Assembly (NCBI GenBank): GCA_029248485.1
Contig: JAQWJG010000004.1
Coordinates: 1 to 13,553 of the forward strand
DNA: 13,553 nucleotides
Direction: 5' to 3'
Source of the DNA: SAR86 cluster bacterium
Lineage (GTDB): Bacteria > Pseudomonadota > Gammaproteobacteria > SAR86 > D2472
This document shows positions 2,219 to 13,553 of this stretch, in pieces. The notes below the pieces were generated by a model. It worked only from the letters and a program-made list of their open reading frames with translations. It was not told where the DNA came from and searched no databases. The position numbers and the translations under genes were made by a program. Position 1 is the stretch's first letter. Each line of letters opens with the position of its first letter.

Positions 2219-2241
2219 AGATTTAATTCTAGGTGATTAGT

Positions 2242-2784
2242 ATGAGTGATATTGATAGCAAAATCCAAGAAATCCTTGATAAGGAATCTATCAGAGATTT
2301 AGTGCATTTGTATTGCAGAGCAGCTGATAGACATGATCATGTGTTAATGCGTGAGCTCTATCATGAAGATGCTTATGATGATCATGGATCTTTTTTTAAA
2401 GGCAAGGCAATGGAATTTATTGATATGCTTCCAGAAATTCAAAAATCGATGGGTATTTTGCATCACAATGTTACGACTCATAATATTAAGTTAATGGGTG
2501 ATAAAGCAGAAGGAGAGACTTACATTATTGCCTTCCATCAAGTGTTAGCTGAGACCGGAAATTTTGATGTACTAATTGGAGGTAGGTACTTTGATGAATA
2601 CCAAAAAAGAGAGGGGCTTTGGAAATTCTCTAGTAGGGCAGTCGATGCAGATTGGGCCTATGTTAATGATCCTTCCCAAGTAAACTTGAAGCATCCTATG
2701 ATTGAAGGAGCTAACATTGGCACATCAAATGATAAGGACCCATCTTATAATTACCTCCATAATTTCAAAAGAGGGAAGAGGTAA
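2242..2784 (+). CDS. SnoaL-like / NTF2-fold protein
   Basis: The 180-aa protein matches the SnoaL_4-type NTF2-like pattern. An N-terminal helix with IRDLVHLYCRAADRHD (residues 17-32) is followed by L-x-x-x-Y, D-A-x-x-D-H-G (43-49), a cone-forming helix, HHNVTTHNI (74-82), and beta strands ending GLWKFSSRAVDADW (125-138). Members include dehydratases, isomerases, epoxide-hydrolase-like enzymes and the small beta subunits of ring-hydroxylating oxygenases, so the reaction cannot be assigned. A GTG at 2233 would add three residues. The ATG at 2242 is preferred because AGGTG at 2231-2235 sits 6 nt before it as a Shine-Dalgarno and would itself overlap the GTG. Neighbouring redox genes suggest a role in catabolism of a cyclic hydrophobic compound. 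The stop codon abuts the stop of the convergent thymidine kinase gene with no bases between. Confidence 0.85.
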   Translation: MSDIDSKIQEILDKESIRDLVHLYCRAADRHDHVLMRELYHEDAYDDHGSFFKGKAMEFIDMLPEIQKSMGILHHNVTTHNIKLMGDKAEGETYIIAFHQVLAETGNFDVLIGGRYFDEYQKREGLWKFSSRAVDADWAYVNDPSQVNLKHPMIEGANIGTSNDKDPSYNYLHNFKRGKR

Positions 2785-3366
2785 TTAAATTAATTGAGTT
2801 AATTCTCTAAAATGTTTTCTACAAAATACTTTATAAGAGTCGTTACCGCCAATTTTAATTTGGTCTCCATCCTTGACCACTTTTCCCTTTTCGTCCAAGC
2901 GAACAACCATTATTGCTTTTCTTCCACAGTCACAAACCGTTTTTAATTCTATTAAATTATCTGCTAGCGCAAGCAGCTCTGAGCTGCCCTCAAAAAGCTT
3001 GCCTTGAAAGTCAGTTCGAATTCCGTAGCACATTGCTGGAATATTCAATTCATCACTTACTTTGCAAACTTGCCTAATTTGATCTTTAGTAAGAAATTGC
3101 ACTTCATCGATTAAAATGCAGCTAATGGCCTTTTTAATTTTTTCCTGAGAAACAAAATCAAAGAAATTAAAATCTGAATCAACAGAATGAGCCTCAGCAG
3201 TTAAACCAATTCTAGAATGAATCTTTCCATCGTTACTATCCGCATCAATTTTAGGAAGGAACAATAGAGTTTCCATGCCTCTTTCATAATAGTTATAGTT
3301 TGATTGAAGCAAGGCAGTTGACTTGCCAGCATTCATTGTGGAGTAGAAGAAGTGTACCTTAGCCAA
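2785..3366 (-). CDS. tdk: Thymidine kinase, type II
   Basis: The 193-aa protein resembles E. coli Tdk throughout and phosphorylates thymidine (and deoxyuridine) to the monophosphate in nucleotide salvage. Visible features are the P-loop region STMNAGKST (9-17), the catalytic DEVQF segment (87-91, with E88 as the family base), GIRTDF (115-120), and the zinc ligands C145, C147, C182 and H185 in CDCGRK and CRKH. E. coli Tdk is a little longer at its C-terminus. The start is TTG at 3366: the protein MAKVHFFYSTMNAGKS then aligns residue for residue with E. coli MAQLYFYYSAMNAGKS, and the next Met (residue 11) would cut into the P-loop. No Shine-Dalgarno is visible. The codon lies in the same frame, one codon after the TGA of the upstream Rieske gene, so translational coupling is likely. 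Confidence 0.95.
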   Translation of the reverse strand: MAKVHFFYSTMNAGKSTALLQSNYNYYERGMETLLFLPKIDADSNDGKIHSRIGLTAEAHSVDSDFNFFDFVSQEKIKKAISCILIDEVQFLTKDQIRQVCKVSDELNIPAMCYGIRTDFQGKLFEGSSELLALADNLIELKTVCDCGRKAIMVVRLDEKGKVVKDGDQIKIGGNDSYKVFCRKHFRELTQLI

Positions 3367-3369
3367 AGA

Positions 3370-4371
3370 TCAGTTTTGAATGGGTTCTGAATAAAATTGG
3401 CTGACCCATTTACGAAATTTATTAATCGGTCCATCGCCGTCGCAGAGGATTGGATCAGCAACATAGCTTTTGTTATCCCAGATGGGCATGTCATCCAAAA
3501 CCCCATTAGCAATTCCATCAATAATTGCCATGCCAAGTTCATCCTCAATATCTTTGGAAACCCTCATAGACCATCTCAGAATTGAGTGAGTATTATCCAC
3601 TGGGCATGATGCATTGACCATGATAAATTCTCCTCCACTTGGAGGAAGATTTATCATCTTTAAGCCCACTGTCCCCAAGCCCCATGATTCCCTAGTAAAA
3701 GTTGTTGTAAACATCCCATGATCCTTAACCTTATGCTCTTCTGAAACGCTATCATTGCTTGGATCCATCAATGTTTCTGCAATTGTTTTTTTGTATATGC
3801 CCTCTGTGATTGCCTCGGTCTCAGGCAGACTGGGCGATCCATGCACTTTTGGAAAATGAGCTTGATCAACATCATTCTCAGCTATTTCTTGTAAAACAGT
3901 GTTGATGTTGTAATCGTAGTGATAAACCTTGCCCCACTTTTCATCATCTCCATTAAAGCCTTCTATTTCAGGAACCTCCCAAGTTGGCTCTTCTTTGTGA
4001 AGATGATGCCATGCCCAAATAAAACCATTAACCTCAACCACAGGATAATTAAAGATCTTAGTTTCCTTGGCTTTGGGTGGAAAATTTTTAGCATACGGGA
4101 TTTCTGCGCAGGTTCCATCAGCATTCCATCTCCATGCATGGAAGGGGCACTCAATGGTTTCACCTTTTACACATCCACCTTCGCCTAAGTGAGCTCCCAA
4201 ATGGGGACAAAATGCATCTAATACAGTTGGTGTCCCGCTCTCTGTCCTAAAAGCAACCACCTCTTTTTCACAAAATTTTAGAGATTGCACATCTCCAACC
4301 TTCAACTCATGGCTTCTTGTGATGCAAAACCACCCGTTTGGCATTGGAAATGGAAATTCTTGTTTTGGCAT
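3370..4371 (-). CDS. KshA-like Rieske non-heme iron oxygenase
   Basis: The 333-aa oxygenase component has a Rieske 2Fe-2S domain with C55, H57, C75 and H78 (C-x-H-x17-C-x2-H, in CPHLGAHLGEGG and CPFHAWRW). Its catalytic domain has the mononuclear iron ligands H172 and H177 (AHFPKVH), bridging D169, and probably D294 in the DDMPIW segment. The end, DMPIWDNKSY then DGDGPINKFRKW and SQFY, follows the pattern of 3-ketosteroid 9-alpha-hydroxylase (KshA) and of cholesterol 7-desaturase (DAF-36/Neverland) relatives. Such enzymes hydroxylate or desaturate polycyclic or terpenoid substrates with electrons from a separate reductase, and no such reductase is encoded in this window. AAGGAAG (complement of 4377-4383) is the ribosome-binding site. 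The gene is divergent from the ADC-SDR-P450 run and is followed by thymidine kinase after a 3-nt gap. The exact substrate is an inference. Confidence 0.9.
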   Translation of the reverse strand: MPKQEFPFPMPNGWFCITRSHELKVGDVQSLKFCEKEVVAFRTESGTPTVLDAFCPHLGAHLGEGGCVKGETIECPFHAWRWNADGTCAEIPYAKNFPPKAKETKIFNYPVVEVNGFIWAWHHLHKEEPTWEVPEIEGFNGDDEKWGKVYHYDYNINTVLQEIAENDVDQAHFPKVHGSPSLPETEAITEGIYKKTIAETLMDPSNDSVSEEHKVKDHGMFTTTFTRESWGLGTVGLKMINLPPSGGEFIMVNASCPVDNTHSILRWSMRVSKDIEDELGMAIIDGIANGVLDDMPIWDNKSYVADPILCDGDGPINKFRKWVSQFYSEPIQN

Positions 4372-4398
4372 TTTTTCTTCCTTGGCTATTTAAATAGT

Positions 4399-4421
4399 TG
4401 GTTTAAATTATAGTGGTTTAA
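4399..4421 (-). promoter_or_regulatory. Rieske gene promoter: TATAAT box flanked by 8-bp direct repeats
   Basis: On the minus strand a perfect TATAAT (complement of 4407-4412) lies about 36 nt before the Rieske ATG, predicting a leader of roughly 28 nt. No good -35 element is seen. The plus-strand octamer TGGTTTAA occurs at 4399-4406 and again at 4414-4421, exactly 15 bp apart and bracketing the -10 box, which could be a regulator site. The promoter call rests on motif and spacing; the repeat function is inferred. Confidence 0.45.
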
Positions 4422-4522
4422 CATCATTTTTAAAAATAAGTATTTATCATGATTTCACTATTAATTATTTGAATCAACACATTTTCTCATAAAAGCATCA
4501 TATTTAATTACGAGTTATATTA

Positions 4523-4558
4523 TTGTTAATTATATTTTATAAACTGTATGATTAATCA
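4523..4558 (+). promoter_or_regulatory. Candidate promoter of the ADC-SDR-P450 run
   Basis: TTGTTA (4523-4528) and TATGAT (4547-4552) are separated by 18 bp. They match the sigma-70 boxes at 4 of 6 and 5 of 6 positions. The predicted start near 4559 leaves a leader of about 20 nt that includes the Shine-Dalgarno GGGAGA (4565-4570) of the ADC-like gene. A 10-bp palindrome TGATTAATCA (4549-4558) overlaps the -10 box and could be an operator. The rest of the 207-bp divergent gap (4372-4578) is AT-rich with no ORF or RNA gene that I can see. Confidence 0.4.
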
Positions 4559-4578
4559 AACATTGGGAGAGAAAAACT

Positions 4579-5346
4579 ATGTCACAACTTAGATTTGTTA
4601 AAACACCTGAGCAGTTAATTGAGGCTGCAGAAAATAATTTAGAATTTTTTGATGCAAACATGCAGGCAATCAAAGCTTGGTATAAAACTGAGCCAGGGCT
4701 GATTGAGCAATTAATTCCAGCACCATTAGAGCCTCACGCAGACCCAATGGTAAGAATAGTTATCTCTCGAGTTTTTGTTGACTTAAATGGTGGCATGGAC
4801 TTTGGGGCTGCTACTTTTGGCGTTAATTGTATGTACAAAGGCAAAGAAGGTATTTATGAAATCACTATGCCAATGGAAACTGAGGGAGTTGTTGTTGGTG
4901 GCAGGGAGACTTATGGTGAGCCCAAGAAAATAGCAGATGTAACAGCTGAAAAAAATGGCGATGACTGTGTTGCAACTGTGACCAGGCATGGAATCACATA
5001 TCTCGAATTAAAAGGCAAAACTACTGATTCTTTAGAAACTTCTTCCTTTACTGATGACGTATATTGCTTCAAGGTATTTCCTTCCTGCGAGCAGCATAAA
5101 GCAGTAGACCAAAACCCTTTATTGGTAAAAATAAATATGCATAGGACACAATCAGTTCACACTAAACTGGATGGAGAAATCATACTCAGAGAATCACCTG
5201 TAGATCCAGTTGTTGATCTTCCAGTCAAGGAAATGGTTTCTTTGGTTTGGGAGGAAGGAACCTCATCTTCAAATGCCTCAGTAATGGAAGAAGTGGATGC
5301 AATGTCATATGTACCATTTATGCATTCTAGATACGATTCTGTTTAA
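4579..5346 (+). CDS. Acetoacetate decarboxylase family protein
   Basis: The 255-aa protein carries the family signature GRETYGEPKKIADV (108-121). K116 fits the Schiff-base lysine (K115 of the Clostridium enzyme) and K117 the lysine beside it. Length is close to the 244 aa of clostridial Adc. True Adc converts acetoacetate to acetone and CO2, but many homologues outside clostridia use other beta-keto acids or act as aldolase-dehydratases through the same Schiff base. Acetoacetate is therefore not assumed; a side-chain or ring-cleavage product of the neighbouring oxygenases is plausible. It is the first gene of a plus-strand run and ends 9 nt before the SDR gene, whose ribosome-binding site AAGGA overlaps this stop codon. 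Expression is likely from the promoter at 4523-4552. Confidence 0.88.
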   Translation: MSQLRFVKTPEQLIEAAENNLEFFDANMQAIKAWYKTEPGLIEQLIPAPLEPHADPMVRIVISRVFVDLNGGMDFGAATFGVNCMYKGKEGIYEITMPMETEGVVVGGRETYGEPKKIADVTAEKNGDDCVATVTRHGITYLELKGKTTDSLETSSFTDDVYCFKVFPSCEQHKAVDQNPLLVKINMHRTQSVHTKLDGEIILRESPVDPVVDLPVKEMVSLVWEEGTSSSNASVMEEVDAMSYVPFMHSRYDSV

Positions 5347-5355
5347 GGACTCATT

Positions 5356-6234
5356 ATGAAAGATTTTAATGGCAAGTTAGCAGTCGTTACTGGCGGTGCA
5401 TCTGGGGTAGGTTTTGCCATCGGTGAAGCTTTGGCGAAGCAGGGTGCAAAGGTTGTTTTAACAGATATTGAAAAAGAGAGCCTTGAAAATTCAACTGCAT
5501 TGCTCACCAATCAATCTCTTGATGTCTATTCCAAGGTTGCGGATGTTTCTAATATCGAGTCGATGCAAGAACTTGCTAGCTGGTGCAAGGCTGAGCATGG
5601 CTCAGTTCATTTGCTTTTTAACAACGCTGGAGTTGCACCTGCAGAATTATTGCCAATTTGGGATACAAAGCCTAACGATTGGCAGTGGGCCTATGGCGTA
5701 AATGTTATGGGAGTGCTTCATGGCATTCAAGCATTTGTTCCAGGGATGCTTGCTCATGGAGAAGAATCAAGAGTGATCAATACATGTTCAGGCAATGGCG
5801 CATTTATTAATTTGCCTTCAACGCCAATTTATACGTCATCTAAAGCTTCGGTTTCTAGCATTACGGAAGTATTAAAACTTCAACTTGAACAGGCCGAGTC
5901 AAATGTAAAGGTTTCAATTTTGTTTCCGGGACCTCATACCGTAAGAACCAAGCTGTTTTCAGCTGAGCGTAATCGTCCCGAAGACTTAGCTAGAGATCCA
6001 AATGCACCCGAACACCCTATCTCATCTGTTGAGGACATGCTCGAAATGATGAGTTCTATGGGTATTGAAATGGAAACTACCGAGCCAGAAGAAGTTGCCT
6101 CATTTTGTCTTGAGCAAATAAAAAATGAGAAGTACTGGATTAATCCTATCAATGAAAAAAGCGAACAAGCCTTTAAGGAGCGTGTTGAATCAATTATCAC
6201 CCGCAGTGATTTACCTAATCCTAATATTTTTTAA
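5356..6234 (+). CDS. Short-chain dehydrogenase/reductase (SDR)
   Basis: The 292-aa classical SDR has the cofactor motif TGGASGVG (12-19), NNAG (89-92), and the catalytic set S145, Y159 and K163 (YTSSK 159-163). D37 after the second beta strand favours NAD(H) over NADP(H). The protein is longer than the usual 250 aa because of a C-terminal part (about 200-292) with an acidic stretch and substrate-lid character. The family interconverts alcohols and ketones; here it most likely oxidises a hydroxyl group introduced by the adjacent P450 or Rieske enzyme, which is inference. The Shine-Dalgarno AAGGA (5345-5349) is 6 nt from the ATG and overlaps the ADC-like stop. The P450 gene follows after 11 nt, so the three genes probably form one operon. 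Confidence 0.92.
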   Translation: MKDFNGKLAVVTGGASGVGFAIGEALAKQGAKVVLTDIEKESLENSTALLTNQSLDVYSKVADVSNIESMQELASWCKAEHGSVHLLFNNAGVAPAELLPIWDTKPNDWQWAYGVNVMGVLHGIQAFVPGMLAHGEESRVINTCSGNGAFINLPSTPIYTSSKASVSSITEVLKLQLEQAESNVKVSILFPGPHTVRTKLFSAERNRPEDLARDPNAPEHPISSVEDMLEMMSSMGIEMETTEPEEVASFCLEQIKNEKYWINPINEKSEQAFKERVESIITRSDLPNPNIF

Positions 6235-6245
6235 TTAAATATCCC

Positions 6246-7472
6246 ATGAGCGTTCAAACCGTCGATCATTTTTTTAACCCATCCTCAAAAGATTTTATCC
6301 ATGATCCAGTGCCTACCTTGGAAAAGTTATGTGCTGAGTATCCAATCTCTAGATTTGATGCATGGCAAGCATGGTTGGTTACAGGGCATGCAAACATAAT
6401 CAAATGTTTATTAGACACAAGGCTATCGACAGACTTCAATCTTTGGGAATACGCTCCCCCCAAAAAACCAGTTGAAGAAATGGATGCATTTGAAAAATTA
6501 ATGAACAATAATTTATTTTTTCTTGATAGAAAAAATCATTTAAGATTAAGAAAATTAGCTTTACCAGCATTCTCACCAAGAATCATGGAGCAGATGAAAG
6601 ACAGGTTCTCGGTTCTTGTTAAAGAAAGGTTTGATGAAATAGGAACACCAGATTCGTTTAACTTTGCAGCAGAAATTGCCGAGATTGTTCCAACCCAAGC
6701 CATAGCAAGTTTGGTTGGTATTCCAAGAGATAAGTTCCCCATCTTTGATTCCTTAGCCTATGGAGTTGTTAGAGGAATTAATCCTATGCTTACACCTGAT
6801 GAGAGAAAGGATGCTATCAAGGGTGTCCCAGAGGGTTTAGCTCTGTTGAATGAGCTTATAGATGAGAGGAGAGCCAATCCTGGCAATGATTTTTTATCTA
6901 CTTTGATCCTTGCTGAAGACCAAGGATCTAAATTATCCAACCTAGAAATGTGCGCATTGGTTGGAGCAGTCCTTGGAGCTGGCTCAGATACTGCTGTTGA
7001 TTTGCATAGCTACCTAATCAAAAATTTATTACAACATCCCGATGAATTTCAGTCGCTGAAAGCAGATCCAGCTCTTGTTCAAGGGGCAATATCTGAAACT
7101 TTAAGATATGAATCATCTGGCAAAACAGGCTTGGCGAGATATGCTTCAGAGGATCTAGAGATCAATGGACATCATGTTAAAAAAGGACAAATGGTTCAGC
7201 TCATCACTAGCACCGCAGGCATGGATTCATCTATTTACAACGAACCAAGAAAATTTGATATTCAAAGAGATCACGATAAAAGCATATCTTTTGGCCAGGG
7301 TCCTCACTACTGCATTGGAGTCACATTGGTTCGCTCCCAAACAGAAGTAATGCTAAAAGAATTATTTAAACGATTTCCAAACCTTAGTCTCGGAGATGAG
7401 ATTGTTTATGATTACAATCATCATAATGCTAGACGCATGGATGTCATGATGGTTAATACCAATCTTGGTTAA
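6246..7472 (+). CDS. Cytochrome P450 (bacterial, soluble)
   Basis: The 408-aa protein has all P450 landmarks: the C-helix H98-x3-R102, the I-helix oxygen-activation motif GAGSDT (244-249), the K-helix ETLR (284-287), and the heme loop FGQGPHYCIG (349-358) with the thiolate ligand C356. No membrane anchor is present, as expected for bacterial class I enzymes that need a ferredoxin and ferredoxin reductase; neither is encoded here. The size and motifs fit the CYP families that hydroxylate terpenoids, steroids or fatty acids, but the substrate cannot be read. It lies 11 nt after the SDR gene with no visible Shine-Dalgarno, which suggests translational coupling or A/T-rich initiation. A hairpin spans its stop codon (7461-7494). 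Confidence 0.96.
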   Translation: MSVQTVDHFFNPSSKDFIHDPVPTLEKLCAEYPISRFDAWQAWLVTGHANIIKCLLDTRLSTDFNLWEYAPPKKPVEEMDAFEKLMNNNLFFLDRKNHLRLRKLALPAFSPRIMEQMKDRFSVLVKERFDEIGTPDSFNFAAEIAEIVPTQAIASLVGIPRDKFPIFDSLAYGVVRGINPMLTPDERKDAIKGVPEGLALLNELIDERRANPGNDFLSTLILAEDQGSKLSNLEMCALVGAVLGAGSDTAVDLHSYLIKNLLQHPDEFQSLKADPALVQGAISETLRYESSGKTGLARYASEDLEINGHHVKKGQMVQLITSTAGMDSSIYNEPRKFDIQRDHDKSISFGQGPHYCIGVTLVRSQTEVMLKELFKRFPNLSLGDEIVYDYNHHNARRMDVMMVNTNLG

Positions 7473-7494
7473 TACATCTAACTAAACCGAGATT
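7461..7494 (+). terminator. Weak hairpin at the end of the P450 gene
   Basis: AATCTTGGTT (7461-7470) can pair with AACCGAGATT (7485-7494) over 10 bp with one G-U pair, around a 14-nt loop that includes part of the stop codon. A short, interrupted T-rich stretch (AGATTTTA) follows. This may be a partial terminator or an mRNA 3' stabiliser ahead of the Smr gene. The large loop and poor T-tract make it weak. Confidence 0.35.
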
Positions 7495-7512
7495 AGATTT
7501 TACAAGAAATTA

Positions 7513-7749
7513 ATGAGTATTTTTGAAGAACGGGGCATTACTCACTTAGATTTGCATGGGCTTAAGCATCAAGATGTTGAGTCTGAAATCATTAATTTTG
7601 TATATCAATACCAACATTTGCTTCCGTTAATTATTGTTTGCGGCAACAGCAATAAGATGATTGAAATTGCAACTAAAGCGCTTACCACATCTCATATTTC
7701 ATATTCATCCCCTAGATTTGGGATCATTCGGATTGAGGGTATTGAATGA
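7513..7749 (+). CDS. Small stand-alone Smr-domain-like protein
   Basis: The 78-aa protein begins with the Smr hallmark LDLHGLKHQDVESEI (13-27). A hydrophobic strand PLIIVCGNSNKM (38-49), a helix and a final FGIIRIEG strand follow. Full Smr domains (about 80-90 aa; MutS2 C-terminus, SmrA/SmrB) bind or cleave nucleic acid, with an H-G-x-G motif in the second half. Here that place reads C-G-N-S, which I recall from short phage-like and marine Smr proteins, so the nuclease-type role is uncertain. The start ATG has only a weak purine-rich AAGAAA upstream. It stands 40 nt after the P450 gene and 109 nt before the TonB receptor, with no obvious functional link to either. Confidence 0.7.
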   Translation: MSIFEERGITHLDLHGLKHQDVESEIINFVYQYQHLLPLIIVCGNSNKMIEIATKALTTSHISYSSPRFGIIRIEGIE

Positions 7750-7858
7750 TTTTAAGTACTTTTGCAAGCTTTTTATTGAATTGATGGCTGCTAAAGATGC
7801 AAACTTGACCCTTTTTTGTAATAATTAATTAACTTTATCGATATTTATGGGGAATTTT

Positions 7859-10039
7859 ATGAGTAATTTTAGACTTATTTTTATGGCACTGCCTTTGGTA
7901 TTTGCATTGAATGTTAATGCTCAGTCGGTTGGCGTTCTTGAGGAGGTTGTTGTAACCGCTCAAAAGAAAGAGGAAAATCTCCAAGATACACCAATTGCCA
8001 TTACAGCAATTACTGAATCTACCATTGATGATTTAGATCTTGCAAATGTAGTTGATTTGGCAGGCATGGCACCCAACGTGCATATCATCAATACACCTTC
8101 AAATAACACAGCAGCAACTATTGCTATGAGAGGCGGCGTTACCATTAACCCTGCAATTACGTGGGAGCCAACTGTTGGGATGTATTTAGATGGTGTTTAT
8201 TTAGGTAAGGGCCAAGGCTCAATTTTTGATGTAGTTGATTTAGAAAGGGTTGAGATTTTGCGAGGACCCCAAGGAACTCTTTATGGAAGAAATACTCTCG
8301 GTGGCGCAATTAACTTAATCAGCAAAAAACCTTCTGGGGAAGGTATGTCTGCAAAAGTTACTATTGGAAACTATGGCTTAAAGCAAAGTCAGCTCATCGC
8401 TGATTATGAAATTGGTGAAAATATTTTTACCAAAGTGGTTCTAAATTCTAAAAAAAGAGGTGGTTATGTAAATAATACTGACTCACCTTATCAAGCGGCT
8501 CAAGGCGTAGTCCCCAATACTGTTGCTGATCACCTGGAACTAGACACAATCGATTCAAAAGGTTTTAAATTTACATTAGCCTATGAGGGAGATAAAACCA
8601 GTGTTAATTTAACGCTTGATAGAACCGACCAAGACAATGTTCCCCCATTTGCACAATTAACCAATACCATTCCTAACTGGAGTACTGCATTTGGTGTTGG
8701 CGCTTCAGCTCTAACAGGTGGATTGAAGCTGTGGCCAATAGAGATGTTTACAAATGAAAAACGCCAAGACGTTGCTCATATTAATACCCCTACATATGAG
8801 CTATCAGTTGTAGAAGGAACAAGTTTGACCATTGCTCGTGATATGAGTCTGGGAACCTTAAAAGTTATTTGGTCAAAAAGGAAAACTGATTGGGATGATA
8901 GACTCGATCTTGATGGTGGGCCATTCCCTATAGCAGACACTGAAAGACATACTAACTATTCCGCTGAAACTCTCGAAATTCAGTTAAGCGGTTCCACAGA
9001 TAACATGGAATATGTTTTTGGTTACTACAGCCTGAAAGATGATGCTTTTACAGCAAACCCTCAGTCATTTTTTGGAGGTGGATCAGTCTTTGCGCAGAAT
9101 TATTCTGGAAGTGGTGACTCTGAAGCATTTTTTGGTCAGATCACATGGGCTATTGCTGATAAATGGGACCTGACTGTTGGTGCAAGATCAACAGAAGAGG
9201 ATAAGGCTGGGTTTAAAGAATATGTTGGTATTATTTCTGCAAATGGAAGCGGAAGTTTTGACGATACTACAGGCACATTCATCCTCTCACATGATTATAG
9301 CGAAAATACCAACCTCTACTTTAAAGTAGCAGATGGATTTAAGGCTGGTGGATTTAATGCAGAAAGCTCAAACCCATTTGCAGCAGCAACTCCTTATGGG
9401 CCTGAAACAGTTTCATCAACTGAGTTCGGTCTCAAAGGTAAATATTTTAATAATAGAATGATGATGAATATTGCTTATTTTGATAATGAGCATGAAGACA
9501 TGCAAATTTCATACTTTACAGCTAACGCTGCAGCGGCATCTGAGGTAATCAATAACTCTGCAGATATTTCTGGTCTTGAGATTGAAACAACAACTCTTAT
9601 CAATGATTCAACAAGACTCATGGTAAATTTAAGCACACTTGATTCTGAGTTTACTGGAAATAAAGTTGCAAGCGATGGTTTTCTCCTTGAGCAGGTACCG
9701 TATTCTCCAGAGACAACTCTATATGTATCTTTAGAAAAAGATTATGGCAATTATCGCATGCGCCTGGATCACAGCAGAATAGGAGAGCACCCAACTTTTC
9801 CTTATAACTCAAAAGATCCAAGAGCTGCATTGACTAATCTAGCTTCTAGAGGCACTACTGATTTTAGGTTATTGACTGAACCAATGGAAAATATGCAGGT
9901 AAATTTTTGGATTAAGAATCTAAACAATGATTATCACAGAATGAGTGCTATTCCATTTGGACCAGCCTTTGGTCAATTAACTTTGAGCTACTTTAATGCT
10001 CCAAGAACAATTGGTATGGATATACACTACAAATTCTAA
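7859..10039 (+). CDS. TonB-dependent outer-membrane receptor
   Basis: The 726-aa protein has a Sec signal peptide (about residues 1-21, cleavage after NVNA), a TonB-box-like EEVVVTAQ (28-35), and a plug domain (about 40-160) with RGGVT, MYLDGVYLG and the highly conserved VEILRGPQGTLYGRNTLGGAINLISKKP region (131-158). A beta-barrel ending in HYKF follows, with the C-terminal aromatic residue needed for outer-membrane assembly. An ATG at 7847 would add four residues, but GGGGA (7849-7853) is well spaced for the ATG at 7859 and leaves a normal signal peptide. The receptor imports a scarce substrate across the outer membrane using TonB-ExbBD. No siderophore-specific feature is evident, and the adjacent oxygenase genes suggest a hydrophobic carbon source. 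It is closed by a strong terminator. Confidence 0.96.
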   Translation: MSNFRLIFMALPLVFALNVNAQSVGVLEEVVVTAQKKEENLQDTPIAITAITESTIDDLDLANVVDLAGMAPNVHIINTPSNNTAATIAMRGGVTINPAITWEPTVGMYLDGVYLGKGQGSIFDVVDLERVEILRGPQGTLYGRNTLGGAINLISKKPSGEGMSAKVTIGNYGLKQSQLIADYEIGENIFTKVVLNSKKRGGYVNNTDSPYQAAQGVVPNTVADHLELDTIDSKGFKFTLAYEGDKTSVNLTLDRTDQDNVPPFAQLTNTIPNWSTAFGVGASALTGGLKLWPIEMFTNEKRQDVAHINTPTYELSVVEGTSLTIARDMSLGTLKVIWSKRKTDWDDRLDLDGGPFPIADTERHTNYSAETLEIQLSGSTDNMEYVFGYYSLKDDAFTANPQSFFGGGSVFAQNYSGSGDSEAFFGQITWAIADKWDLTVGARSTEEDKAGFKEYVGIISANGSGSFDDTTGTFILSHDYSENTNLYFKVADGFKAGGFNAESSNPFAAATPYGPETVSSTEFGLKGKYFNNRMMMNIAYFDNEHEDMQISYFTANAAAASEVINNSADISGLEIETTTLINDSTRLMVNLSTLDSEFTGNKVASDGFLLEQVPYSPETTLYVSLEKDYGNYRMRLDHSRIGEHPTFPYNSKDPRAALTNLASRGTTDFRLLTEPMENMQVNFWIKNLNNDYHRMSAIPFGPAFGQLTLSYFNAPRTIGMDIHYKF

Positions 10040-10048
10040 TATTAGAAT
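10033..10048. repeat. 16-bp perfect palindrome over the TonB receptor stop codon
   Basis: ATTCTAATATTAGAAT is a perfect 16-bp palindrome that includes the TAA stop (10037-10039). Its last base is the first base of a perfect TATAAT (10048-10053). It sits 5 bp before the terminator stem. It may be a regulator site for the downstream acyl-CoA dehydrogenase or a chance AT-rich palindrome. Confidence 0.4.
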
Positions 10049-10053
10049 ATAAT

Positions 10054-10085
10054 AAAAGCCTCGGTATTTCCCGAGGCTTTTTTTT
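10054..10085 (+). terminator. Strong intrinsic terminator after the TonB receptor
   Basis: AAAAGCCTCGG (10054-10064) pairs perfectly with CCGAGGCTTTT (10071-10081) around a 6-nt loop, and the T-tract continues to 10085 (8 T in a row from 10078). This is a textbook Rho-independent terminator for the plus-strand run ending with the TonB receptor. The A-rich left flank means it could also act in the reverse direction. Confidence 0.93.
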
Positions 10086-10094
10086 GTAAAAATT

Positions 10095-11261
10095 ATGGAT
10101 AATAACTGGGAAGACATTTTAAGGCTTGATGGTCAATTAACCGAAGAAGAAAGGATGATTCGCGACAACGTTCGCGAGTATTGCAACAAATCCTTGATGC
10201 CCCGCATTTTAGATGCCAATAGGAATGAAACATTTCATCCTGAAATATATAAAGAAATGGGAGAGCTTGGTATTCTTGGCGCCTCTATTAAAGGCTATGG
10301 ATGTGCAGGTGTTGGGTATGTTTCTTACGGACTAATAACGCGTGAAATTGAAAGAGTTGACTCTAGTTATAGATCTGCATTCAGTGTCCAGTCTTCATTA
10401 GCAATGTATGCCATTTATCAGTTTGGATCAGAGGAACAAAAAGAAGATTTATTACCGCAGATGGCAGCTGGAAATTTAATTGGATGCTTTGGATTGACCG
10501 AGCCTGATGCTGGTTCTGATCCTGGTAGCATGGTTTCAAATGCAAAAAAAGTTGAAGGAGGTTATCAATTAAATGGATCTAAGACATGGATAACAAATGC
10601 ACCTGTTGCTGATGTATTTATTATTTGGGCAAAAGATGAGCAAGGAGTTTTAAGAGGTTTCATAGCTAGAAAAGGTTTTAAAGGACTTGATACTAAGGTC
10701 TTAGAGGGTAAGTTTGCACTTAGGGCATCAGTTACAGGCCAAATTTTTATGTCTGATGTTTTCATCCCAGACGACCATGTTCTCCCTTTAGCTCAAAGTT
10801 TTAGAGGCCCTTTTTCTTGTTTAAATATGGCTAGGTATGGCATTGCATGGGGCGCCATGGGCGCGGCTGAATTTTGCTGGCATGCTGCTCGCCAATATAC
10901 GCTAGACAGGACTCAGTTTGGAACACCTCTTGCTGCAAAACAATTAGTTCAGAAAAAATTAGCTGACATGCAGACAGAAATTACATTAGGCTTACAAGCA
11001 GCCTTGCGAGTTGGAAGATTAATTGATGATGAGCAGATGATCCCTGAAATGATTTCTCTTATTAAGCGAAACAATTGTGGTAAAGCTTTAGAAGTTGCCA
11101 GATTGGCGAGAGACATGCATGGCGGTAACGGAGTGATTGATGAATATCATGTCGTAAGACACTCAATGAATTTAGAAGCAGTAAATACCTACGAAGGCAC
11201 CCATGATATACATGCTTTAATTCTTGGTAATCTTCAGACCAATATAGCAGCCTTCGAGTAA
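10095..11261 (+). CDS. gcdH: Glutaryl-CoA dehydrogenase (acyl-CoA dehydrogenase family)
   Basis: The 388-aa flavoprotein follows human and bacterial GCDH closely, for example [11 protein letters not shown] (91-101), [14 protein letters not shown] (130-143), [11 protein letters not shown] (322-332), RDMHGGNG (339-346) and [15 protein letters not shown] (364-378). The catalytic base is E367. E86 and R93 match the glutarate-binding pair E87/R94 of human GCDH, and Y366 next to the base is typical of decarboxylating forms. The enzyme converts glutaryl-CoA to crotonyl-CoA and CO2 in lysine, tryptophan and aromatic breakdown and passes electrons to ETF. The start is fixed by the N-terminal match (WED then [10 protein letters not shown]). 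No Shine-Dalgarno is seen, and the ATG is only 9 nt after the upstream T-tract. No CoA-transferase gene is adjacent. Confidence 0.94.
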
Positions 11262-11263
11262 TG

Positions 11264-11291
11264 TTTAATGTCAAGTAAACTTGACATTAAA
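11264..11291. promoter_or_regulatory. 28-bp perfect inverted repeat (candidate operator, SoxR-box-like core)
   Basis: Arms TTTAATGTCAAG (11264-11275) and CTTGACATTAAA (11280-11291) are perfectly complementary around the 4-nt centre TAAA. The repeat begins 2 bp after the GCDH stop. The right arm contains a consensus -35 box. The central 14 bp, TCAAGTAAACTTGA, differ at one position from the core of the E. coli SoxR box (TCAAGTTAACTTGA), as I recall that sequence. It could be a regulator site for the efflux operon, a weak GCDH terminator (it is followed by TTTATATAT rather than a T-tract), or both. Confidence 0.7.
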
Positions 11292-11309
11292 TTTATATAT
11301 ACATACCAT
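11281..11309 (+). promoter_or_regulatory. Promoter of the nitroreductase-ABC-adaptor operon
   Basis: A perfect -35 TTGACA (11281-11286), an optimal 17-bp spacer and TACCAT (11304-11309, 4 of 6 matches to the -10) precede the ATG at 11319. The predicted start, near 11316, leaves only about 3 nt of leader. This fits the lack of any Shine-Dalgarno and suggests a leaderless or nearly leaderless mRNA. The -35 lies within the inverted repeat, so a bound regulator would directly affect polymerase access. Confidence 0.6.
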
Positions 11310-11318
11310 TAAAAATCA

Positions 11319-11777
11319 ATGAGCTCTGAAAAATACACTTTAAAACAAGCAAAAATAGCTAAACGAATTATCAAGTACTTTGCTAAATTTCAGGCTAGTA
11401 TTTTTTTGATAAGCAAAGGAAGACTTTGGAATAAATGGCCAGGTGGTTTCCCAATTATGGTTGTAGAAACCAGAGGTGCTAAGTCCAATAAAATAAGAAA
11501 CATACCGCTGATCTATGTGCATCAAGAGGGGATGCCAATATTGGTTGCCTCTTTAGGTGGGATGCCAAAGAACCCTAATTGGTATTACAACGTTATAGCA
11601 AACCCAACAGTTAAGATCTCCACCATTGAGGGGCATGGGAACTATTTAGCAGAAGTGGTGTCTAAAGAAAAAAAGGAAGAGTTATGGCCATTAATTTGTT
11701 CATTCTACCCCGATTATGAAACTTATCAGAGTAACACTGCCAGAGAGATACCTGTTTTTTTGTGTAAACCAGCATGA
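11319..11777 (+). CDS. Deazaflavin-dependent nitroreductase (Ddn)-like protein
   Basis: The 152-aa protein shows the split-beta-barrel family pattern. RLWNKWPGGFPIMVVETRGAKS (35-56) corresponds to the family TTTGRKSG region, followed by IRNIPLIYV (59-67), the signature GGMPKNPNWYYNVIANP (80-96), and a tail with LW, YPDYETYQ and REIPVFL. In mycobacteria such proteins (Ddn/FDOR-B) use reduced F420 to reduce nitroaromatics, quinones and other electrophiles. F420 is uncommon in gammaproteobacteria, so the true cofactor here may be F420, FMN or none. There is no signal peptide. No Shine-Dalgarno is present, in agreement with the predicted leaderless transcript. The TGA stop overlaps the start of the ABC ATPase gene (ATGA 11774-11777), which points to translational coupling and a shared function with the exporter. 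Confidence 0.85.
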   Translation: MSSEKYTLKQAKIAKRIIKYFAKFQASIFLISKGRLWNKWPGGFPIMVVETRGAKSNKIRNIPLIYVHQEGMPILVASLGGMPKNPNWYYNVIANPTVKISTIEGHGNYLAEVVSKEKKEELWPLICSFYPDYETYQSNTAREIPVFLCKPA

Positions 11778-12463
11778 ATGTTATAGACGTTAAAAATATT
11801 ACCAAACATTATTTACTTGGCACCCAAACAGTAGAGGCCTTAAGAGGCGTGAGCTTTGGTATAGAGCAAGGTGAATTTATAGCAATTATGGGTCCATCAG
11901 GGTCCGGTAAATCTACGCTCATGAACATTATTGGATGTCTTGATAGCCCTACAGATGGAACATATCACCTTAACAACCAAGAAGTTAGCACTTTAGAAGG
12001 GGATGAGCTTGCAGGCATAAGAAATAAAGAGATTGGTTTTGTATTTCAAAATTTTCATCTATTGGCACGTAACAGTGCGCTTGATAATGTTATGTAGCCA
12101 TTAAAATATGCTGGAGTTGATAAGGCAGATCAACTTAAAAGAGGTAAGGATGCTCTTTCCCAAGTTGGGCTTGAATCAAGAATGGATCATCAGCCATCTG
12201 AACTGTCAGGAGGGCAGCAGCAAAGAGTTGCTATAGCCAGAGCGTTGGTGAATAACCCATCTATTTTATTTGCCGATGAGCCAACTGGAAACTTAGACAG
12301 CCAAACTGGACACGATGTCATGCAACTTTTTCATAATCTGCATCAACAAGGCCAAACAATTATTTTAATTACTCACGAAAATGAAGTAGCCGCAGAGGCT
12401 CAAAGAACAATATTTATTAAAGATGGTTTGATAGAATCGGACATTAGAAAGGAAAAACTATGA
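11774..12463 (+). CDS. MacB/LolD-type ABC transporter ATPase, split by one in-frame TAG codon
   Basis: The frame is open for 229 codons apart from TAG at codon 108 (12095-12097). Every ATPase element is intact: Walker A GPSGSGKST (40-48), Q-loop Q92 (FVFQNFHLL), ABC signature LSGGQ (144-148), Walker B ILFADEP (164-170) with E169, D-loop NLD, and H-loop H201. The class is the MacB/LolD/FtsE-like exporters that couple to a MacB- or LolC/E-type permease for drug, toxin or lipoprotein export. The TAG replaces a position in NVM-x-PLKYAG, where relatives often carry Leu or Glu. As written, a 107-aa fragment with Walker A only would be made, and a 93-aa fragment from ATG 12182 has no ribosome-binding site. 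ATGA overlaps tie it to the genes on both sides. It may be a recent nonsense mutation, a sequencing error or a read-through codon. Confidence 0.88.
12095..12097 (+). other. In-frame amber codon within the ABC ATPase gene
   Basis: TAG at codon 108 interrupts the reading frame between the Q-loop and the ABC signature. The same frame continues without any shift, with conserved residues right after it (PLKYAG) and intact motifs to the natural TGA at 12461-12463. A single base change from TTG (Leu) would create it. None of the other complete genes in the window stops at TAG (all use TAA or TGA). Confidence 0.9.
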
Positions 12464-13553
12464 AGAGCTCAATTATTAAAACATTCAGTATCATTTTATC
12501 GGCGGTATTAGTTGTTAGTTGTGGTGGAGGTAAAGAGGAAGAGGAATTTAAATTCTATGCTCTAAAAGAAGCGGCATCTCAGCAACTAGAGCTTACTGTT
12601 GAAGCCTCAGGAACTGTTGAGGCTATCTCGTCTATTGAGATTAAATCAAAAGCATCTGGGCAAATTCTTTTTTTAGGAGCTGAAATTGGAGATTATGTAG
12701 ATGAGGGTGTGGTTCTTGCAAGAATAGATCAAAGAACGCCAACAAACACTCTTGCTCAAGCCAACGCAGATCTTGAGGTTGCTAAAGTTCGTTTAAGCAA
12801 TGCCCAAAATCAATTTGAGCGCTCCAAAAGATTGCATGATGAAGGTAATATTTCTGATAAATCATTTGAGGATGCTCAAGAATCATTCTCCTCAGCAAGA
12901 GCTCAGTTAGTTAGAGCGGAAGTATTCTTAGAAAATGCTCGAATAGCTTTAGATGATACAAGTGTAAGATCACCAATTGCTGGTACTGTTATCAGTAGAT
13001 TAGCTGAAGTGGGCCAAGTGATCACTTCACCAACATCTGCTGTAGGTGGCGGGACATTATTAATGGAGATGGCAGATCTCAATAAAGTTCGAGTTAGAGC
13101 ATTAATCGATGAGATAGACATTGGCAAGATTACTATTGGTCAAGAAGTTACATTAAAGGTTTCAGCGTATAGGGACAAAAAATTTGTGGGAGTTGTTTCC
13201 AAGATTGAACCTATGTCAAAAATTGATCAAAATGTTACGACATTCCCAGTGCTAATAGACATCGAGAATCAAGATAATTTATTACTAATAGGAATGAACA
13301 CTGACGTTGAAATTGAAATTTTAAATGAGGAAGTAGCTTTAGCATTACCAGCAGGCTCTTTGAGAACGCGAAAAGATATTGGTTCTGTTGCTCCGTTGCT
13401 TGGGATTAAAGAAGATGAGTTAAATAATTTTTTAACCAAAAGAGTTGAGGGCGAAAATTTTGACTCATACATAGTTCTTAAAAAAACCAAGAAGGGTGCA
13501 ATACCTATTTGGGTAAAAGTTGGAAAAACAGATCTTAATTATGTTGAGGTCAA
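12460..13553 (+). CDS. MacA/HlyD-type periplasmic adaptor lipoprotein (partial, 3' cut by window)
   Basis: An open frame of 364 codons runs off the window end. It begins at the ATG of an ATGA overlap with the ABC ATPase stop. The N-terminus is a lipoprotein signal with lipobox LVVSC (Cys21), followed by a Gly-rich and acidic linker. Then come a first half-lipoyl region (ASGTVEAISSIEIKSKASGQI, about 49-69, continuing GDYVDEGVVLARID), a coiled-coil hairpin (about 95-165, rich in Ala, Gln and Glu), the second half-lipoyl motif VRSPIAGTVISRLAEVGQVI (169-188), and a beta-barrel domain (about 200-290). This is the membrane-fusion protein of a MacAB-like exporter, connecting an inner-membrane ABC permease to an outer-membrane channel. 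The permease gene is probably just beyond the window. An anchored lipid in place of MacA's transmembrane helix is a known variant. Confidence 0.92.
   Translation, partial: MKSSIIKTFSIILSAVLVVSCGGGKEEEEFKFYALKEAASQQLELTVEASGTVEAISSIEIKSKASGQILFLGAEIGDYVDEGVVLARIDQRTPTNTLAQANADLEVAKVRLSNAQNQFERSKRLHDEGNISDKSFEDAQESFSSARAQLVRAEVFLENARIALDDTSVRSPIAGTVISRLAEVGQVITSPTSAVGGGTLLMEMADLNKVRVRALIDEIDIGKITIGQEVTLKVSAYRDKKFVGVVSKIEPMSKIDQNVTTFPVLIDIENQDNLLLIGMNTDVEIEILNEEVALALPAGSLRTRKDIGSVAPLLGIKEDELNNFLTKRVEGENFDSYIVLKKTKKGAIPIWVKVGKTDLNYVEV

Follow-up and report, generated by a model that had tools for sequence, protein, structure and literature searches.

Exporters of the MacB/LolD type and interrupted reading frames

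The closest described systems to the locus considered here are the ABC exporters of the MacB/LolD type, in which an ATPase of the ABC_tran family (PF00005) is found together with a HlyD-family adaptor and a permease of the MacB_PCD/FtsX type. The window (that is, the whole stretch of 13,553 nucleotides of SAR86 cluster DNA that was analysed) resembles these systems both in the motifs of its ATPase and in the order of its ATPase and adaptor genes, and differs from them in that the ATPase frame contains one in-frame TAG. In the relative locus L001, the order of the genes is ATPase, adaptor and permease; because the ATPase and permease are encoded there by separate genes, the system differs from, and is not, a fused MacB. 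The ATPase of the window falls below the NCBIfam cut-offs of the models for MacB, LolD, DarD and FtsE: its score is 266.4 bits against a cut-off of 966 for MacB proper (NF007826, a model of 648 positions named ATP-binding protein/permease), and 234.1 bits against a cut-off of 307.75 for LolD (TIGR02211).

Two further classes of phenomena provide a frame of reference for the interruption itself. Ordinary private nonsense mutations and consensus base errors have in common with this locus a single lesion, its private occurrence and flanks that remain under constraint, and no feature that differs from them was found. Reassignment of UAG, as described for bacteria and phages, likewise involves TAG within a reading frame, at a position where a sense codon is conserved; in contrast to that situation, the window has a single such occurrence, its relatives mostly possess RF1 and have genes that are ended by TAG, and a CUA-anticodon tRNA was not seen. 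No relatives of the adaptor were found in viral contigs. Among the titles surveyed on SAR86 pseudogenes and on UAG and release-factor codes in metagenomes, none concerned the locus, and SAR86 was not found in the main text of PMC8629427. As argued below, the TAG is very probably a nonsense change of one base, private to the window, in a SAR86 gene that is normal in other respects and has no special decoding.

Organization of the interrupted ATPase gene

The ATPase frame, which is MacB/LolD-like, spans positions 11774..12463 of the forward strand (229 codons plus TGA) and is interrupted once, by a TAG at codon 108 (12095..12097, forward strand) that lies between the Q-loop and the signature motif. 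Upstream of the TAG are the sequences GPSGSGKST (residues 40-48) and FQNF (residues 91-94), the Walker A motif and the Q-loop stretch, respectively; downstream and in the same frame are LSGGQ (residues 144-148), ILFADEPTGNLDS (residues 164-176) and ITHE (residues 199-202), respectively the signature motif, the Walker B/D-loop and the H-loop. The Walker A, Q-loop, signature, Walker B and H-loop elements by which a PF00005 exporter ATPase is assessed are all found in one frame, split by the TAG, and the two halves of the protein match complementary parts (1-79 and 85-136) of the 137 positions of the Pfam ABC_tran model. Read with the TAG as a terminator, the frame yields an ORF of 107 amino acids (11774..12097, forward strand) that contains only Walker A and the Q-loop, while past the TAG an in-frame ORF of 93 amino acids (12182..12463, forward strand), beginning at the first listed in-frame start (an ATG), contains the signature, Walker B and the H-loop and is devoid of Walker A.

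The gene that precedes the ATPase, a member of the deazaflavin-dependent nitroreductase family (PF04075; 11319..11777, forward strand), overlaps it through an ATGA, with the TGA of the former at 11775-11777 and the ATG of the latter at 11774. A second ATGA joins the ATPase TGA (12461-12463) to the ATG at 12460 of a periplasmic adaptor of the HlyD/RND_mfp family (12460..13553, forward strand), which is cut by the window end, is undamaged over its visible part, and has as its ribosome-binding-like stretch AGAAAGGA. The sequence therefore bears out what a preliminary description had said of the frame: that it is interrupted by a single TAG at codon 108, that its catalytic motifs are kept in the same frame on both sides (as the matches of both halves to ABC_tran also indicate), and that the overlaps with both neighbours are intact at the coordinates given above.

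Codon 108 among relatives

The window is part of a SAR86 chromosome. A scan with the adaptor gene led to 23 relative loci, 20 of them labelled as SAR86 cluster; the labels of L013, L019 and L021 are limited to Proteobacteria or Gammaproteobacteria. The longest close match to the window, L001, displays 86.8% identity over 11.1 kb, so that no relative examined represents the same strain. In all 23 loci, position 108 is occupied by a leucine sense codon, a result that goes against the suggestion of TAG recoding, for which comparison with the same locus in related genomes had been proposed as a check. Leucine is also found at that position in the best 120 of 7999 scored protein matches, a set that is biased towards intact genes because it is made of predicted proteins.

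The first stop was located in the 22 loci that could be read from the aligned start (L011, which begins inside the gene, being left out), and falls at codon 227-230 in 21 of them and at codon 216 in L012. In six loci (L007, L008, L009, L010, L015 and L017) the natural end comes two codons early, as a TAA at codon 228, and the ATPase copy of L020 itself ends with a TAG, at codon 227. Among 107 genomes of the family, 73 carry the ATPase gene (E <= 1e-80); an in-frame TAG was found in none of those 73 copies, and one in-frame TAA in each of five. Three of these five genomes (G007, G035 and G040) match L007, L008 and L015 by place, where the TAA is that of codon 228, and in the other two (G058 and G072) the frame stays open for 226 residues. 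No internal stops were present in tblastn alignments (at least 70% identity) of 11 window genes to the 23 loci. A 107-residue truncated form ending at the residues that precede the TAG was not found among the best 120 of 7990 matches, a weak search, since the database had been clustered at 90% identity and short forms may be concealed by its representatives.

A separate irregularity was observed in the SAR86 MAG FRAM18_bin297 (L012:9341-10004), in which the ATPase gene loses its frame near codon 214, reaches a stop at codon 216, and has its usual C-terminus continuing in another frame, as the result of either a mutation or an assembly error.

Constraint on the gene and age of the change

Changes on the branch leading to the window were counted at sites where at least three of the loci L001, L023, L002 and L005 have data and agree, and where the window differs. 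In the ATPase gene this yielded eight synonymous changes, no missense change and one nonsense change, where roughly 27 missense changes would be expected beside eight synonymous ones in the absence of selection (an approximate figure, based on the share of each class among possible single changes). The lack of missense change against that expectation implies that the stop, provided that the base is real, appeared towards the end of this branch and would be very recent; it also agrees with the earlier statement that decay has not set in. Relative to L001, the two halves of the ATPase are equally constrained (14 synonymous and no nonsynonymous changes in the N half, 18 and one in the C half).

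An intact frame on both sides of the stop, without missense change on the branch, would also be the product of programmed or suppressor-driven read-through, in which the single TAG is passed often enough to generate some full-length ATPase. However, extreme recency accounts equally well for the intact frame; the stop is common to no relative examined, so that nothing points to a recoding signal being maintained; and a CUA-anticodon tRNA was not found in two relatives. Such read-through is very unlikely, and it is similarly improbable that the strain, by way of a suppressor tRNA or some other form of read-through, tolerates the amber codon and still produces its ATPase at full length.

Gene decay, with the entire exporter operon on its way to loss in the lineage of the window, might be imagined from the null allele that the TAG (if real) represents and from the other relative, L012, that is out of frame near the end of its ATPase gene. 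Against it stand the missense changes missing from the ATPase and the state of the adaptor, which is 98.6% identical to that of L001 at the protein level (58 synonymous and six nonsynonymous changes) and, judged from those substitutions, is free of decay; a decaying operon is highly improbable.

TAG as a terminator in the window and its relatives

The remaining alternative holds that TAG has been reassigned to an amino acid in the organism of the window and that the ATPase is made at full length, a scenario suggested by one in-frame TAG with perfect flanks and by the lack of TAG among the visible gene ends. The 12 window genes with a visible end stop at TAA (eight genes) or TGA (four) and never at TAG; the preliminary tally was accurate for the four TGA and the missing TAG, and had nine TAA where eight were counted. 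At the rate seen in relatives (47 of 335), the probability of finding no TAG among 12 ends is 0.16, so its absence from the window is not informative, and the accompanying caution that the visible stops are too few to prove recoding was justified. That rate comes from the 23 loci, in which 335 non-overlapping ORFs with a length of 150 codons or more end in TAA (208), TGA (80) and TAG (47). When gene ends in relatives were aligned to those of ten window genes with a visible end, TAG was found at 27 of 150, and the three loci that are closest in the ATPase gene (L001, L002 and L023) are among those that have TAG gene ends.

The machinery of termination presents a similar picture. RF1 scores above the family cut-off in 91 of the 107 family genomes and in 11 of the 14 source genomes of the loci; the 16 family genomes where it does not, which include G001 and G002, are of unstated completeness. 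Among close relatives, G014 contains a whole RF1, G001 a piece of one at a contig edge, and G002 (its completeness again unstated) none above the cut-off; most genomes also have a second, weaker match, at about 265 bits, which is presumably RF2. In analyses with ARAGORN, neither the 34 tRNAs of G012, a complete SAR86 chromosome, nor the 23 tRNAs of the close relative G014 included one with a CUA anticodon, and no tRNA is located within the window. Whereas reassignment would be expected to place many in-frame TAGs at conserved codons and to leave TAG unused as a gene end, the 13 window genes contain one, against 4319 sense codons, and the relatives terminate genes with it. Reassignment is thus left with next to no probability, and we infer that the strain of the window decodes TAG as its relatives do.

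Of the three options raised in the preliminary description, recent nonsense mutation and base-call error survive, and recoding, as far as relatives can tell, is made very unlikely by their sense codon, RF1 and terminal TAGs; on the strength of the terminal and internal stops, RF1 and tRNAs of relatives, both recoding and read-through were rejected as main explanations.

A real null allele or a consensus error

The TAG occupies a well-defined position, is unique among the relatives examined, has intact surroundings and occurs in a group whose members make ordinary use of TAG; a recent nonsense mutation and a base-call error, taken together, are by far the likeliest account. The verdict is an ordinary, private and very recent nonsense change or base error. 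Between a null allele that is real, of very recent origin and probably transient on the one hand and a consensus error on the other, the balance is roughly even, and the evidence available from sequence leaves it near even, with neither the constraint nor the shared residues described below settling the matter.

The window departs from residues that are invariant in at least eight relatives at 10 of 2190 positions in 11 genes, the stop being one of them, and approximately 4.7% of single-base changes in its genes would create a stop. Since the gene is strongly constrained, a true null allele is unlikely to turn up in a genome that happens to be sampled, a consideration that would pull towards error. 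Because the upstream gene (11319-11777) has six private missense changes relative to four relatives, with three of them at positions that are invariant in 15 relative loci, poor local sequence quality was also suspected. For two or more of these three changes, that suspicion was countered by P0312, a 106-residue partial protein encoded by another contig (longest contig, 513 bases), which has the residue of the window at five of the six sites, the sixth (site 13) lying outside it, and differs from the window at one other residue. Three of the five residues common to both are frequent among the matches; besides P0312, the residue at site 93 is found in no match of at least 75% identity and that at site 113 in one match (P0242), while the residue of the window at site 13 is present in none of 82 matches. 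The sharing of rare residues indicates that no fewer than two of the three unusual changes represent natural variation rather than errors; the recurrence of residues 93 and 113 in another contig pulls towards a sound local consensus, and most of the nearby consensus represents a real strain. A comparison of mutation classes between genes gave P = 0.04, and was not relied upon because the genes had been grouped after the fact. The residues shared at sites 93 and 113 are, in addition, a sign that the haplotype of the window occurs elsewhere.

If the base is real, RF1 would end translation at codon 108, leaving a 107-residue piece devoid of the signature motif, Walker B and the H-loop, and a restart at 12182 could provide a 93-residue piece devoid of Walker A. 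Since neither piece has a complete ATP site, the exporter would be left without its ATPase, which would be null in the cell lineage concerned. Should the base be wrong, the TAG would be a consensus error of the contig.

Divergence and gene content along the window

Synonymous divergence from L001 falls along the window (positions 2233-13551): it is about 0.9-1.3 in six genes between 2785 and 10039, reaches 3.0 and 2.5 in two genes (at 2233 and 7513, respectively) that are short or partly aligned, and declines to 0.67, 0.34, 0.25 and 0.27 over the final four genes, a drop at the right end that suggests recombination or stronger synonymous constraint. In L009, L010, L015 and L018 the alignment breaks off at 11313 and resumes at 11768-11774, with few bases between, and the nitroreductase gene (11319-11777) appears to be missing. 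DNA identity to L003 and L014 is approximately 78% up to 8475, is followed by no alignment from 8476 to 9322, and is 73% over 9323-11268 and 86% from 11325 onwards, with protein identities in L003 of 58% for a TonB receptor and 85% for an acyl-CoA dehydrogenase; the drop at 8476-11268 may correspond to the replacement of a block of genes.

Implications

The significance of the finding is small, and lies in the demonstration that a lone in-frame stop, in a contig for which the genome is lacking, can look like recoding, and that the stop usage, RF1 and tRNA content of relatives settle most of the recoding question. If the base is real, the window would represent a null allele of recent origin in a well-conserved exporter, sampled from an uncultured marine lineage.
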